A stretch of DNA of 64,000 bases, taken from the NCBI GenBank assembly GCA_002712005.1, contig PASP01000014.1, forward strand, positions 434,001-498,000, read 5' to 3'. This DNA is from Halobacteriovoraceae bacterium. Its GTDB lineage: Bacteria > Bdellovibrionota > Bacteriovoracia > Bacteriovoracales > Bacteriovoracaceae. The position numbers and the translations under genes were made by a program. The number at the start of each line of letters is the position of its first letter. Position 1 is the first letter of the stretch. Of the stretch, positions 4,800-40,805 are shown one piece after another. The notes under the pieces were generated by a model. That model was given only the letters and a program-made list of their open reading frames with translations, ran no database searches and was not told the DNA's origin.

Positions 4800-6737
4800 T
4801 TACTCTTCGAGGGCCTCATAAAGTTCTAAGAGATACTCTTCTTTTTCTTCTTTTTTCTCTGAAAGCTGGGCCAGTTTTTCTACCCCTTCACTGGATTCTT
4901 GATGAATCGCCAGTTCATTCATGAGAGCGTCAATTTTCTCAATTAATGCTTCCGTTTCAGATATTTTAGTCTCCAACTCAGCTGGACTAAGATTTAATTT
5001 TTTCTTTTTCTTAACTTCTTGTTGGATAGCAGGCTGACTATCATTGATAGGAGGAGATTTGGTCTCGGTATCCTCGGTAATGCTCTCTTTTAGAAGTTGG
5101 TCTTCAAGGGCCTTGACCTCAAGATATTCTTCAGCCTGATCATATCCACCTTCAAATACCTCAATTTGTTGATTCTCAATAAGAAGGAGCCTATTTGTAA
5201 TATTTTTCAGGAAGGATCTATCGTGAGATATCACAAGAATACAGCCACCGAACTCTTGTAAAGTTTTCTCTAGAATATCAAGAGTCTCTAGGTCAAGATC
5301 ATTGGTAGGTTCATCAAATACCCAAATATCAGCAGCATCTTTTAAATTTAAGGCCAGTTGAAGTCGATTTCTCTCTCCACCTGAAAAGGTGTGAAGAGGT
5401 CTATGAACTTCATCTCCACTAAATAAAAACTTTTTGAAATAACTGATGACATGTTGAGTTCCCCCATTGGGAAGTAAGACTTGGTCTGTACCATCACCTA
5501 AAATTTCAAATGGTGTCTTATCTAAGGGAAGTTCTGCTCTTTGTTGAGTGAAGACTTTAATTTTTATATCTGGAGCTCTTTTTATTTGTCCGGAATATTC
5601 GTTAATTTCACCTGAAAGAATCTTGATAAGAGTTGATTTTCCAACACCATTTTCTCCAAGAATTCCGATTTTGTTTCCTCGATAGACGGAGAAGCTTAAA
5701 TGATGGAATAAGTCTTTATTAGGATAACCAAAACTTAAGTCCTTGATATCCACAAGTTGTTTTGATTTCTTATTTCCCTCTGAGACATTGAGCATAAGGG
5801 TTCTCTTCGCTTGGCCTTTGAGCTCTGATATCTTCTTCTTAACATCGTGAAAACCTTCAACTCTTTTTTTAGATCGAGTCCCTCTGGCCTTAATACCTTG
5901 TTTCATCCAGGCATCTTCACGACGGAAACTATTCTGCAGTTTATTGAGTTGAGAAAGGCGATCTTGCTCTCTTTGAGCCTCTAATTCTAAGAAGTCTCGA
6001 TAACCACCTTTAAAGGAGATTATTTCTTGATTCTTAATTTGAAAGATTTTAGTGGTTACTTTACCTAGGAGATATCTATCGTGAGTAACAAGAATATAGG
6101 CTTGATCTGTAAGTAAGAGCTCTTCTTCAAAGAGCTTAATCGTTTCGATATCAAGGTGGTTGGTAGGCTCATCCCAAAGTATTAATTGGTCTTTTGCACT
6201 TAAGCCTAAAGCAAGAAGAATCTTCTTTCTTTGACCACCACTTAGATCGTTTAGGGGAGCACTCAGATCGATTAGACCTAAGGACTTGCAGTACGACTCA
6301 AAACTATGCACCAGACTCCAGACATCCTCTCCCTCGAATAAATCTAAAATTCTACTTTGTTCCTCTAAATCACCATCACTTGCTTCACCTTTTTCGATGA
6401 GCTGATTGAGTATTTCTAATCTATGATGAGATTCTTTGAATTTAGGATAAAATTCCCAAAAGCAGTTTTGGATACTCGTTTGACTTGGAATTTCAGTTGG
6501 AATTTCTTGAGGGACATGGAATAGAGAGAAGCCCTGTGTTTTATCAAAAAGAAAAGGGGGAGTACTGGTGTCTGCTCCTTGCTTGCCTTCTAGTATTTTA
6601 AATAGCGAAGACTTTCCTTTTCCATTGAGACCCAAGAGACCAATTCTATCTCCTTGCTCAATAAGTAGCTCTGCATTTTTAAAAAGAACTTTTGAACCAA
6701 AACTAAGGCTTAAATTTTTAAAAGAACAGAGGATCAC
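4800..6737 (-). CDS. ABC-F family ATPase (Uup/EttA-like)
   Basis: 645 residues with two ABC cassettes and no membrane segments. Cassette 1 has Walker A GLNGKGKS (residues 36-43), signature LSGGQ and Walker B LILWDEP. Cassette 2 has GENGVGKS, FSGGE and IWVFDEPTNDLD. Between them is the charged ABC-F linker, and the C-terminus is a Lys/Glu-rich coiled coil as in Uup. ABC-F proteins act on ribosomes or, for Uup, are linked to DNA transactions and ribosome assembly. The coiled-coil tail favours the Uup subgroup. It is monocistronic, with its stop facing the marR control region. Antibiotic-resistance ABC-F members cannot be excluded. Confidence 0.92.
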   Translation of the reverse strand: MILCSFKNLSLSFGSKVLFKNAELLIEQGDRIGLLGLNGKGKSSLFKILEGKQGADTSTPPFLFDKTQGFSLFHVPQEIPTEIPSQTSIQNCFWEFYPKFKESHHRLEILNQLIEKGEASDGDLEEQSRILDLFEGEDVWSLVHSFESYCKSLGLIDLSAPLNDLSGGQRKKILLALGLSAKDQLILWDEPTNHLDIETIKLFEEELLLTDQAYILVTHDRYLLGKVTTKIFQIKNQEIISFKGGYRDFLELEAQREQDRLSQLNKLQNSFRREDAWMKQGIKARGTRSKKRVEGFHDVKKKISELKGQAKRTLMLNVSEGNKKSKQLVDIKDLSFGYPNKDLFHHLSFSVYRGNKIGILGENGVGKSTLIKILSGEINEYSGQIKRAPDIKIKVFTQQRAELPLDKTPFEILGDGTDQVLLPNGGTQHVISYFKKFLFSGDEVHRPLHTFSGGERNRLQLALNLKDAADIWVFDEPTNDLDLETLDILEKTLQEFGGCILVISHDRSFLKNITNRLLLIENQQIEVFEGGYDQAEEYLEVKALEDQLLKESITEDTETKSPPINDSQPAIQQEVKKKKKLNLSPAELETKISETEALIEKIDALMNELAIHQESSEGVEKLAQLSEKKEEKEEYLLELYEALEE

Positions 6738-36894: not shown

Positions 36895-37334
36895 AATTCA
36901 GCGTTAAAATCTTTATTCAAGGTTTGAATTTCAATATGACCTTGAATTTTATCTTCATTTTTAAGACGATACTCTATATTAATCAAAAGAGTATCATTTA
37001 ATATCTTTTCGAGTGCTTTATCCTTTAATGCAAAAGTACATATTTTTTTTCCTTTTTTCTTTTTAGCTTTAGCAAAGATGAGACCATTTACTCCTCTTGT
37101 TTGTTGAGGAGCCGTAAGACGGGTGATTTTATAGTAGCAAGTCGCTTGAGAGTTTTCTTTCTCATCAGCCTTCAGTTCCAGTAGATATTGTTTTTCATAG
37201 CTTCGTACTTGAAACTGAATTAAGGATTCTATTGAGGGTAATTTGAATTCTCCTTTTACTAAGACAGGTTCTTCATTTGCATAAAGATTTAGACTGAGTA
37301 AATTAAATAGGAGAAAGAGGATAATCTTATTCAT
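36891..37334 (-). CDS. Hypothetical secreted protein
   Basis: 147 residues with signal peptide (MNKIILFLLFNLLSLNLYA). The mature part looks beta-rich, with ATCYYKITRL and KKKKGKKICTFALKDKALEKI. No family recognised. It overlaps the arginine-deiminase gene upstream by 4 bp (same operon) and its stop overlaps the convergent glycosidase stop by 4 bp. Confidence 0.7.
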   Translation of the reverse strand: MNKIILFLLFNLLSLNLYANEEPVLVKGEFKLPSIESLIQFQVRSYEKQYLLELKADEKENSQATCYYKITRLTAPQQTRGVNGLIFAKAKKKKGKKICTFALKDKALEKILNDTLLINIEYRLKNEDKIQGHIEIQTLNKDFNAEF

Positions 37335-39028
37335 TGCTTACATATCCTTGCTGTATTCGTTCCACAATGTACTTGTCCATTTAGCAGGTGATAGCCAAGT
37401 CCATGGACAAAGGTGGCACCAACTCCAAGTTTCGTAAGTTCATCTTCCATATATTGATCGAAGGGACGAAAATAAGTTCTTGGCATAATTATGGTAGAAG
37501 TATTGTTCTGATTTGTATGGACGACACCATTGACTAGGTCGGGCGCATAAGCAACTCCACCTCGAAAGAAAACTGGAACTTCAACAACGGGGGGAGCGGA
37601 ACATCCACTGGTCTGTGCTAATTCTCTCAAGAGAGCATCTTTATTCCTATTCATTACATCTTCAATAGAAGGAGGACCTTCAAGATTTTCTCTTTTAAGG
37701 ATTTGATATTCATCTGAATCCACAAATGTTGTTACTGATTGATCATCAATACAATTACGTTCATAGACTTCGTTAGTTTTTCCCTCACTTATCTCCTCAA
37801 AGGCTCCATCATAAAGAAGTTCGTTATAACTCACTTCTTCGCAATCGATATCCTCAGAAGGAGTATCGTCATCGCCACCAAATAGTTTCATTGCTCCTGC
37901 ATGAGCTTTAGGGATAAGAAGGTTTTGAATATCTTGAATAAATCCGGCATCACCTTCATTTTCTTTTTCAAGATTGATTTGATTGGCAGTCGACTCCATA
38001 AGTTCAAAAGCCTTTCTTGGGCTGGCCAAGAGAAGGGCAAAGTTACAGGGGGCAGGTTGATTGGTTTGCACAAAGTTAATAATCTCATCTACGTGACCAA
38101 CACTTAGAAAAGATGTGTCGAGATCTAAAAGTTTATTGCCGTTGGCTTCAAGAGATTCTCTTTGAACCTTTTGAGCTTGAGACTCAAAAGGGACTTCTAG
38201 ACTGCCATTTGTATTGTACTTGGGAAATCCATCCGTTTGAATGGTTCCGCGATACATTGTCCCTCCAGGCATGGTCTCTAAATTTCCACCACTATTTAAA
38301 CTATTGTAGTCTGCATTATTGGGATCAACCATATCAGGGGGGATAAGGTAAGGAACATTACAACTCTTTGCGATGGCACAGGTAAGCCTAGTGCTTAAAT
38401 CCCTTCCTTGTTCGGTATGATGTTCAAGTTGATAGAGGGCCGGCTTTCCATTTAAGGTTCCAAATTCAAATGAATCTTGCATCCAGCGCTCAACAGAAGG
38501 CATGGCCTCTACTTGAACAATATTAACTTGTGCCTGATTTAATTTTTTGGTTAGTTCCTCGTCTTCTTTCAAGTTATCAATATATCCTCTCGGGATAACC
38601 AAGTTGAAACGTCCAGCTGGGTTATCTTTTCTATACTCGTCGATTAGGTTTTGAAGAAAAGCTGAGTTATTGCCCATATACATAGCGAATATTCCGCCAC
38701 TGGGAAATGTATGATCGAGTCCTCGAAAGTCTGTGCCTGGTTGGGGGCAGTTGGGAATATCAATTCCTGAATTTTCAACTTCAGCATGACTAGCTACACA
38801 TTGGTTAACAGTAGCAAGATCTAATATATCTTTAAGGGCATCATCCATTTTTCCACTACAGCCATTTAAAGAGTCATCTTCTTCACATTCTTCGACTGTG
38901 CCAAAGCCATTATTAACACTATTGAGTGTTCCAAGGTCTTGTGCATGTTCGGTAATACCTAGAGAGTAAATATTGATCACGAATAAAAAATAGAGATAAA
39001 AGGTCGCTCTAGCTTTCAAAGGGTCCAC
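37331..39028 (-). CDS. Secreted protein-arginine deiminase (PAD-family)
   Basis: 565 residues from GTG 39028 (TTG 39019, six bases after AGGTGG, is also possible). It begins with a secretion signal (FYLYFLFVINIYSLG). The PAD catalytic set is present in order: Asp185 (ERWMQDSFEFG), a GGNLE motif (247-251), His312 and Asp314 (VGHVDEI), and the nucleophile Cys555 (GQVHCGTN). These correspond to D350, H471, D473 and C645 of human PAD4. The family converts protein arginine to citrulline and needs calcium in animals. Length is near vertebrate catalytic plus middle regions, but the N-terminal immunoglobulin-like domains are not recognisable. A role on prey or own envelope proteins is inference. Confidence 0.88.
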   Translation of the reverse strand: MDPLKARATFYLYFLFVINIYSLGITEHAQDLGTLNSVNNGFGTVEECEEDDSLNGCSGKMDDALKDILDLATVNQCVASHAEVENSGIDIPNCPQPGTDFRGLDHTFPSGGIFAMYMGNNSAFLQNLIDEYRKDNPAGRFNLVIPRGYIDNLKEDEELTKKLNQAQVNIVQVEAMPSVERWMQDSFEFGTLNGKPALYQLEHHTEQGRDLSTRLTCAIAKSCNVPYLIPPDMVDPNNADYNSLNSGGNLETMPGGTMYRGTIQTDGFPKYNTNGSLEVPFESQAQKVQRESLEANGNKLLDLDTSFLSVGHVDEIINFVQTNQPAPCNFALLLASPRKAFELMESTANQINLEKENEGDAGFIQDIQNLLIPKAHAGAMKLFGGDDDTPSEDIDCEEVSYNELLYDGAFEEISEGKTNEVYERNCIDDQSVTTFVDSDEYQILKRENLEGPPSIEDVMNRNKDALLRELAQTSGCSAPPVVEVPVFFRGGVAYAPDLVNGVVHTNQNNTSTIIMPRTYFRPFDQYMEDELTKLGVGATFVHGLGYHLLNGQVHCGTNTARICKQ

Positions 39029-39081: not shown

Positions 39082-39162
39082 AATTTGAGGATAAGAAAAG
39101 AACCCTTACGTTTATTCAGTAGCTTGGTCTGATTTTTGATTAATTTCAAAGCCTTAGATAGT

Positions 39163-39356
39163 GGGCAACCTGATTCGAACAGGCGCTGGCCCAAACTCGG
39201 TTCTACTAAGTTGGTCGTGTACGAATTTATCCAAGAAGTAAAAATATGCCTGTGGCATATTTTTTTGGGCCAGTCAGCAAGGCATTGCCATGCCTCAAGT
39301 CGCATAAGATGGACTGAGGTATTAGTTATTTTTTGTGTTTAAATTAAATATGGAGC
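39163..39356 (-). repeat. Tandem repeat unit 1 carrying a tRNA-Gly 3' end
   Basis: A 194-bp unit, distal of two behind tRNA-Gly on the minus strand. Its first 25 bases on the plus strand duplicate the tRNA's acceptor/T-arm end, but the CCA is lost (flank TAGTGGGC). Inside are CTGGCCCAAA (39186-39195) with TTTGGGCCAG (39264-39273), closing around an 11-bp hairpin at 39240-39264 with loop TGT, and AGGCAT-tgcc-ATGCCT. About a dozen substitutions from unit 2. Confidence 0.9.
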
Positions 39357-39549
39357 GGGCAACCTGATTCGAACAGGCGCTGGCCCAAACTCGGTTCTAC
39401 TAATCTGGTCGTGTTCGAATTTACCCAAGAAGTAAAAATATGCCACAGGCATATTTTTTTGGGCCAGACAGCAAGGCATTGCCATGCCTCAGGTCGCATA
39501 AGATGGACTGAGGTATTAGTCATTTTTGTGTTTGATTAAAATATGGAGC
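39357..39549 (-). repeat. Tandem repeat unit 2 carrying a tRNA-Gly 3' end with CCA
   Basis: A 193-bp unit directly downstream of tRNA-Gly on the minus strand. It keeps the tRNA 3' segment (T arm, acceptor strand and CCA). Its inner inverted repeats are at 39380-39389 with 39458-39467 and an 11-bp hairpin at 39434-39458 with loop ACA. The arrangement parallels E. coli tyrT, whose tandem 178-bp repeats each hold 19 bp of the tRNA 3' end and release rtT RNA. Confidence 0.9.
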
Positions 39550-39619
39550 GGGCAACCTGATTCGAACAGGCGACCTTCTGCATGGCAAGCAGACGCTCTA
39601 CCAACTGAGCTATACCCGC
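39544..39619 (-). tRNA. tRNA-Gly (anticodon GCC)
   Basis: A 76-nt cloverleaf on the minus strand. Acceptor GCGGGTA (5' end at 39619) pairs with TGCCCGC; D arm TAGCTCAGTTGGTAGAGC; anticodon loop TTGCCAT in stem CTGC/GCAG; T arm GCCTGTTCGAATCAGGT; discriminator T; CCA encoded at 39546-39544. It heads the two-unit tandem repeat. Confidence 0.97.
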
Positions 39620-39752
39620 AAATGATCTTTTTTGGTGGACGAATAATAGTCTTCTCAGTCTGGTGTTGTCAATCTTAAAAATAAAAGTTATGCTCGGCGT
39701 CGCTCAAATCTATTTAGAGGCATAACAACTAACAACACCTTCAAAGAGTAGA

Positions 39753-40805
39753 ATGCATAAACTTCTTCTAGTCCTATTACTTCTTCCTATTGTATCAGTA
39801 CAGGCTGATATCTGTACTCGCCAAACGAAGATCGTAGAACAAATAGAAGAAGATCTAAAGCTACCTTGTCAGAAAATTTCGGACTCTGAATTAAAGAAAG
39901 TATTCAGATTAGATCTTCAGGACCTAGGGCTCGAAACAATCTCTAAGAAAGATCTTGCTGGTCTCGTTAATCTAGAGACTCTCTTTCTTTCTCGCAATCA
40001 CTTGAAGGTTTTTCCAAGTTCAGCGCTAAATCACTTAAGAAAACTAAGATCTCTTTCCGTTTACGATAATGATATTTCTAAAATCAGTTATCAAGATTTT
40101 GAAGGACTCTCTTATCTTAAGTCTTTAGACTTAAGCTCTAATAAGATTTGTGATATCGAAAAAGATACCTTTAAAGACTTAGGACAGCTTCATTATTTGG
40201 ATCTTTCTCAAAATTGTCTGGAAAAAATTAAGTCAGGCGCATTCAACAAACTTCGTCATTTAGAATTTCTCGTTCTTAGTGGCAACAAGATCGTGTTTCT
40301 AGAATCTCGATCATTTGAAGGTTTGTCCTCATTGATTAATCTTGAGTTGACTTCTAATAAGCTTCGTTATTTAAACTCAATTGTTTTCAACGACCTTAAG
40401 AAACTAGAAGAATTGGCCCTAAGCTTAAATGATCTGGTGTGGCTCCCCAGTGATTTATTTGCCAAGAATCCATTGTTGAAGAGGCTTTACTTGGGGGGAA
40501 ATCCACTTCGAAATGTCTCGGAAACTCTCATTCGTTCATTGAAGAATCTGGAAGATCTTTATATGAACTATACAAAGCTAAGTTATCTAGGTTCCACTTT
40601 CTTTCATGGGCTCTATAACTTGAGAATGGTTTTCTTGAATAATAATCAGTTTGTAACGGTTCCTGTCGATCTTTTTAAAGGTGATAATATCTCCAATCAA
40701 TTTACGATTTTTCTTTCTTCCAATCCTTTGGATGATTTTGCCAGAGAAGAACTTATTAAAGGCCTGAGGGATCGAGTTCAGGTCGGTGAAAAAAATAGTC
40801 TTTAG
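39753..40805 (+). CDS. Secreted leucine-rich-repeat protein
   Basis: 350 residues. Signal peptide (MHKLLLVLLLLPIVSVQA), an N-terminal cap with Cys pairs (CTRQ and LPCQK), then about 11 LRRs of 24 residues with the typical LxxLxxLxLxxNxLxxL pattern and FxxL positions (FEGLSYLKSLDLSSNKICDI). The 24-residue repeat is the class common in extracellular eukaryotic receptors. LRRs bind proteins or glycans; a surface recognition role is inferred. Stand-alone gene with no coupled neighbour. Confidence 0.88.
   Translation: MHKLLLVLLLLPIVSVQADICTRQTKIVEQIEEDLKLPCQKISDSELKKVFRLDLQDLGLETISKKDLAGLVNLETLFLSRNHLKVFPSSALNHLRKLRSLSVYDNDISKISYQDFEGLSYLKSLDLSSNKICDIEKDTFKDLGQLHYLDLSQNCLEKIKSGAFNKLRHLEFLVLSGNKIVFLESRSFEGLSSLINLELTSNKLRYLNSIVFNDLKKLEELALSLNDLVWLPSDLFAKNPLLKRLYLGGNPLRNVSETLIRSLKNLEDLYMNYTKLSYLGSTFFHGLYNLRMVFLNNNQFVTVPVDLFKGDNISNQFTIFLSSNPLDDFAREELIKGLRDRVQVGEKNSL

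Follow-up and report, generated by a model that had tools for sequence, protein, structure and literature searches.

A covarying and apparently undescribed repeat at gene 3′ ends, present as a tandem pair behind a tRNA-Gly gene of a Halobacteriovoraceae bacterium

A stretch of 64,000 nucleotides from contig PASP01000014.1 of a Halobacteriovoraceae bacterium, referred to below as the window, carries two tandem structured units 3′ of a tRNA-Gly(GCC) gene. These units are a tandem pair, of the type attached to tRNA genes, of a repeat family that is real, covarying and apparently undescribed. With a probability of about 0.7 we read them as copies, attached to a tRNA gene, of a structured and non-coding repeat with a dispersed distribution: a non-autonomous mobile element tied to gene 3′ ends and resembling repetitive extragenic palindromic (REP) sequences and miniature inverted-repeat transposable elements (MITEs).

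An earlier sequence-only reading had described two tandem units that each end in the tRNA 3′ end, the proximal one with CCA, and repeat comparison confirmed this arrangement, with all parts on the minus strand. A 174-nt stretch occurs in two direct copies 3′ of tRNA-Gly (94% identity, spacing 194), and the tRNA-end stretch is present in three copies with spacings of 194 and 193. The conserved nested fold that had been proposed for the units was borne out as well: the fold energies lie below those of dinucleotide shuffles for both units (z −3.1 and −4.0), and relatives carry a covarying core. The complete tandem arrangement occurs once in the window genome. Three features go beyond the earlier description, namely a 19-nt antisense tRNA piece directly before the fold in each unit, a promoter-like site and the presence of the core at many places in relatives. 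The features of the window are as follows, P0 to P3 denoting paired elements.

39643..39672, minus strand: promoter-like TTGACA-18-TATTAT, 5′ of tRNA-Gly (consensus scan, 11/12 matches; not evidence of function)
39544..39619, minus strand: tRNA-Gly(GCC) gene, CCA encoded (ARAGORN; Rfam RF00005, 69 bits)
39351..39543, minus strand: unit 1 (proximal), 193 nt, consisting of AT-rich spacer, antisense tRNA piece, P0, core and tRNA 3′ end with CCA
39479..39497, minus strand: antisense copy of tRNA-Gly nt 32–50 in unit 1, 16/19
39474..39489, minus strand: P0 of unit 1, small hairpin AGGCAT-GGCA-ATGCCT (from the sequence)
39376..39471, minus strand: core of unit 1 with P1, P2 and P3 (model R2, 89.1 bits; pairs tested by covariation)
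39435..39457, minus strand: P2 of unit 1, perfect A/T-flanked hairpin with loop TGT, terminator-like
39351..39379, minus strand: exact copy of tRNA-Gly nt 48–76 (T arm, acceptor strand, CCA), ending unit 1
39160..39350, minus strand: unit 2 (distal), layout as unit 1, tRNA end without CCA
39285..39303, minus strand: antisense copy of tRNA-Gly nt 32–50 in unit 2, 15/19
39280..39295, minus strand: P0 of unit 2, small hairpin (from the sequence)
39182..39277, minus strand: core of unit 2 with P1, P2 and P3 (model R2, 92.9 bits)
39241..39263, minus strand: P2 of unit 2, loop ACA
39160..39185, minus strand: copy of tRNA-Gly nt 48–73 with one change and no CCA, ending unit 2

The starting point for the comparison with relatives were weak DNA matches in which the same core lies 3′ of tRNA-Gly, -Asn and -Phe genes. 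Six sequences at these genes were aligned with MAFFT and used to build a covariance model (R1), which was then refined (R2). The core spans ~96 nt and consists of an outer stem P1 (10 bp), a perfect A/T-flanked hairpin P2 (10 bp) and a weaker stem P3 (CTTGG/CCGAG); the motifs ACTTCTTGG and GTAGAACCGAG are nearly invariant in the six-copy alignment. In this alignment 12 pairs show two-sided changes, and the covariation score is 0.467 compared to at most 0.11 for slid pairings. The sequence-only reading had suggested a covariation search in related genomes as a check. With 49 sequences, two-sided changes were found in 22 of 27 pairs and the score was 0.596, while slid pairings gave about 0.08 and at most 0.10; the paired fraction was 93.5% for P1, 98.8% for P2 and 76% for P3. 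The 49-sequence alignment was fitted to the structure, so that these figures lean towards it, but both the slid controls and the MAFFT alignment of six sequences point the same way. The covariation is proof that the stems are maintained, not that RNA is the reason.

Searches of related genomes showed that the repeat is not unique to one assembly; such uniqueness would have spoken against the earlier reading. The family, order and class samples are the same 129 genomes; R1 detected the core in 34 of them at E ≤ 0.05 and R2 in 27 at E ≤ 0.001. The highest copy number, 34, was reached in genome G004 once more candidates had been scored by R2. In a search of 369 genomes of the phylum all 25 matches (25/25) fell within the one bacterial family. 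The sister species G032 carries copies at other tRNA genes (Phe, Asp, Arg and partial Leu). An exact-pattern scan for CTTCTTGG-N15..45-GAACCGAG in 84,980 genomes gave chance matches only, among the matches listed, and two scans of viral contigs gave no match and three matches, respectively, the latter all rejected by the model. Rfam matched only the tRNA in the window (4227 models, lax threshold included, with no unit match above gathering score) and only tRNA in 20 loci with copies. A literature search yielded no paper describing the element.

For the analysis of placement 94 aligned copies were used. Twenty-one of these follow a same-strand tRNA gene within ~300 nt, and ten kinds of tRNA are represented upstream (Gly, Asn, Asp, Phe, Met, Arg, Val, Leu, Pro and His). 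For 55 of the 73 copies not placed at tRNA genes, a co-directional stop codon starts at alignment columns −2 to +12, mostly at +3 or +6, i.e. inside or at the foot of the 5′ strand of P1. Controls gave 1.4% for random positions in the same loci and 1.2% for positions with room for an insertion (1.2–1.5% overall), and the mirrored test at the right foot gave 6/72. TAG is enriched among the stop codons at the P1 foot (TAG 31, TAA 15, TGA 7, compared to 24, 50 and 16 in the other frames). The genes that end there are unrelated to each other (pheS, pgk, groEL, bactofilin and others); the gene following such a copy is either convergent or has its Shine-Dalgarno sequence directly after P1. This sense orientation at gene ends argues for an RNA-level role or for targeting related to the transcript.

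The copies at tRNA genes bear traces of the tRNA itself. Their upstream flanks match the antisense strand of their own tRNA with a mean score of 11.1, compared to 6.7 for other tRNAs (in 13 of 21 copies the own tRNA scores above 95% of the others), and the downstream flanks match the sense strand of their own tRNA with 12.6 compared to 7.1; the opposite strand combinations are near background. On visual inspection, the left flank in many cases follows the tRNA in antisense, turns at P0, takes up a few sense bases and enters the core, after which the tRNA sense sequence resumes. A small P0-like hairpin is likewise visible by eye at the same place in many other copies of this type, and some contain the extra motif GAGAGCAGGATGCGG. 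Replication template switching is one option for how the fold-back could have arisen. In genome G057 the core follows directly after the CCA of tRNA-Val and is repeated as approximately four decaying tandem units on the minus strand of locus L244 (200–1700), with the recurring motif AGAGCAGGATGCGG; other genomes have this motif too, in their copies at tRNA-Phe and tRNA-Leu.

The sequence-only reading had offered unequal crossing-over of the glycine tRNA as one origin of the units. Two near-identical tandem units bounded by tRNA-end copies do fit one extra duplication, and recombination between tRNA ends is plausible for the step from one unit to two. As a general explanation it fails: it covers only the doubling in the window lineage and neither the 27 genomes nor the ten tRNA isotypes and the stop codons at which the core is found. 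That simple crossing-over of the tRNA region, and nothing wider, accounts for the repeat is hardly credible; the tandem repeats are no isolated peculiarity of a single tRNA.

The placement also bears on the idea that the 3′ end of tRNA-Gly is the target of an integrase and the units are leftovers of integrative elements, that is, remnants of attachment (att) sites. The gene for tRNA-Gly(GCC) is an integration site or hotspot in the genus, and in genome G031 a 4.4-kb segment beside the tRNA gene lies between two identical 54-bp copies of the tRNA-Gly 3′ end (locus L043, 1109–1162 and 5491–5544). As in genomic islands at tRNA sites, a copy of the tRNA 3′ end lies downstream of the tRNA; in contrast to such islands, the window unit is 193 bp long, non-coding and without an integrase, none being encoded in the reading frames neighbouring the units, and the core is found at places with no tRNA as well. 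The copies carry an antisense tRNA piece that att sites do not need. Since unrelated genes have the same core at their stop codons with no tRNA involved, att-site remnants are excluded as a general explanation, and overall we regard this origin as very improbable. A mirror case was seen in G053 (L035, 820–843) and G033 (L046, 1928–1957), where a copy of the 5′ part of tRNA-Gly (about nt 1–29) lies 115–175 bp upstream of the intact tRNA and is followed by a structured stretch.

Orthologous sites with and without the element were compared. Between pheS and pheT the element is present in 2 of 12 congeneric species, where it lies precisely in the space from the stop codon to the pheT Shine-Dalgarno sequence, and the gap measures roughly 10–20 nt in the 10 species without it. 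At the bactofilin site it occurs in 1 of 13 species, and at a gene of 400 aa it is intact in 2 of 13 and left as a decayed remnant in a third (G008). At all three sites the gain or loss is precise and specific to lineages and leaves the protein unaltered; at the last two the protein ends are identical in place with or without the element. Groups of copies at unrelated genes furthermore have P1 sequences in common, for example GTAGCTTGAA/TTCAAGCTAC. From this sharing of P1 and from the occupied and empty orthologous sites we infer that the element is mobile. TA is found on both sides of several copies, though TA also pairs in P1.

The patchy presence likewise bears on the alternative that the repeat is a functional RNA in 3′ untranslated regions or tRNA trailers, vertically inherited and repeatedly lost rather than mobile, which would end or stabilise transcripts or be cut out as a small RNA. 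The sense orientation at the 3′ ends of transcribed genes and the strong covariation are in line with it, as is the finding that orthologous copies in two species retain P1 pairing through double changes. P2, with its A and T tracts, resembles a terminator hairpin, and the stretch from tRNA-Gly to unit 1 contains no typical terminator. A consensus scan for intrinsic terminators (GC-rich stem and unpaired T run) gave none, and the T run of P2 pairs with the A run. However, the element is missing from most congeners at pheS-pheT and sits at different tRNA genes in the sister species, many tRNA-type copies lie beyond the tRNA's own terminator, and a real terminator inside an operon would silence the next gene. 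The shared P1 sequences at unrelated genes are what recent spread would be expected to leave. On balance a purely inherited trailer RNA appears unlikely to us.

This alternative includes the rtT-like interpretation in the sequence-only reading. Escherichia coli tyrT reportedly has, downstream of the tRNA gene, tandem repeats with the tRNA 3′ end that give rise to rtT RNA. The likeness consists of tandem units of ~180–190 bp 3′ of a tRNA gene, each with the tRNA 3′ end, and nothing further is shared; to this extent the comparison stands. It does not extend to a repeat peculiar to one tRNA: the core is dispersed, occurring at many tRNAs and also at unrelated protein genes, and each unit has an antisense tRNA piece, the element being known here from its sequence.

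According to the favoured reading of a mobile element, the repeat would insert at gene ends or survive only there. A first copy would have joined the 3′ end of tRNA-Gly, and recombination between the copies of the tRNA end would then have doubled it in the window lineage. Co-transcription of the units with tRNA-Gly is conceivable, P2 of unit 1 being the first terminator-like hairpin after the tRNA; any role for this transcript, as its terminator or trailer, is putative. In the minimum free energy fold of tRNA plus unit 1, a thermodynamic prediction only, the 5′ acceptor strand of the tRNA pairs with the distal 3′ end.

Several points weigh against this reading. No clear target duplication was found at the copies, and the orthologous sites without the element could in part be losses. 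Under the criteria applied, 18 of the 94 copies could be assigned to neither type of gene end, some of them adjoining partial or opposite-strand tRNA sequences. The left ends differ between copies at tRNAs and copies at stop codons, and there may thus be two related elements. P3 is only partly supported. G-U pairs are scarce in P1 and P2 (21 compared to 10 A-C in 1866 cells), and the P2 loop is inverted among copies (AGT 35, ACT 6; also TGT/ACA, the latter in the two window units, whose stems are both perfect). Loop inversion in hairpins is discussed as a signature of template switching (PMC8794818). Together with the scarcity of G-U it suggests that template switching at the DNA level, and not RNA function, could maintain the pairing: the stems would be kept perfect during replication by quasipalindrome correction, and the covariation would reflect DNA mutation instead of RNA selection. 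Such a process is compatible with a mobile element. It explains neither why copies stand at stop codons and tRNA ends nor their dispersal, nor the conserved unpaired motifs around P3, and in P1 G-U still exceeds A-C (16 to 6, compared to 5 and 4 in P2). We consider it a tentative possibility, somewhat on the weaker side.

The mobile-element reading is further weakened by the lack of a mobilising gene among the Y1 transposases, which are present with and without the element and not flanked by it. Genes for REP-associated tyrosine transposases (RAYT, Y1) are reported to lie in every case between two REPs in inverted orientation (PMC2817692). PF01797 genes were found in 23 of 24 genomes, both with and without the element, and R2 applied to ~3-kb loci around 30 Y1 genes gave only weak unpaired matches, the best with 27 bits. 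The link to REP/RAYT was dropped, as the Y1 genes are not flanked by two element copies; one strong core copy lies near a Y1 gene (locus L303).

REPs and bacterial interspersed mosaic elements (BIMEs) nevertheless share with the element that they are small, dispersed, palindromic, non-coding intergenic repeats whose palindrome is kept by complementary changes. The GT(A/G)G head of REPs can be likened to GTAG at the outer foot of P1, found in 12 of 94 copies (GTGG in 3 of 94), a frequency that does not amount to a REP head on a single palindrome. The element differs from the one short palindrome of a REP by its core of ~96 nt with two stems plus P3, its orientation is locked to the upstream gene, and alternating arrays like those of BIMEs were not seen. 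An attC-like reading was dropped by eye, as there is no RYYYAAC/GTTRRRY pair.

MITEs and small bacterial insertion-like repeats include RUP, Correia/NEMIS, ERIC and BOX. The element resembles MITEs in being short and non-autonomous, in having a terminal inverted repeat (P1) and in its high number of copies, whose presence is patchy among close species; as expected of MITEs, some orthologous sites are occupied and others empty, at pheS-pheT, bactofilin and the 400-aa gene. It differs by having no established related transposase or target duplication and by its fixed sense placement at stop codons and tRNA 3′ ends.

Whether the element itself recognises gene 3′ ends, entering in sense exactly at stop codons and tRNA 3′ ends, is a separate claim that we regard as rather doubtful. 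If true, it would need targeting via the transcript or via translation termination, by insertion at the RNA level or by a nuclease coupled to termination, which to our knowledge is not known for bacterial elements. A repeat that marks gene ends this exactly would offer a new way to study the choice of harmless sites by small non-autonomous elements, and would bear on the evolution of tRNA and mRNA 3′ ends in the bacterial lineage concerned. As there are up to 34 copies in one genome and clean empty sites, insertion targeting and any effects on expression are directly testable.

Further observations concern the surroundings of individual copies. In G032, locus L181 holds two copies of 374–387 bp (1755–2141 and 5234–5607, 84% identical), each with a tRNA-Phe 3′ end, which bracket three genes in a cassette-like manner: two lipoprotein-like genes and one coding for a helix-turn-helix (HTH) plus DUF4423 protein. 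A separate fold-back repeat of ~110 bp is found in the same locus at 1788–1898, 2440–2562, 5270–5366 and 5658–5754. In the window, the neighbours of tRNA-Gly are genes for a protein of the protein-arginine-deiminase family (37331–39028) and a leucine-rich-repeat protein (39753–40805).
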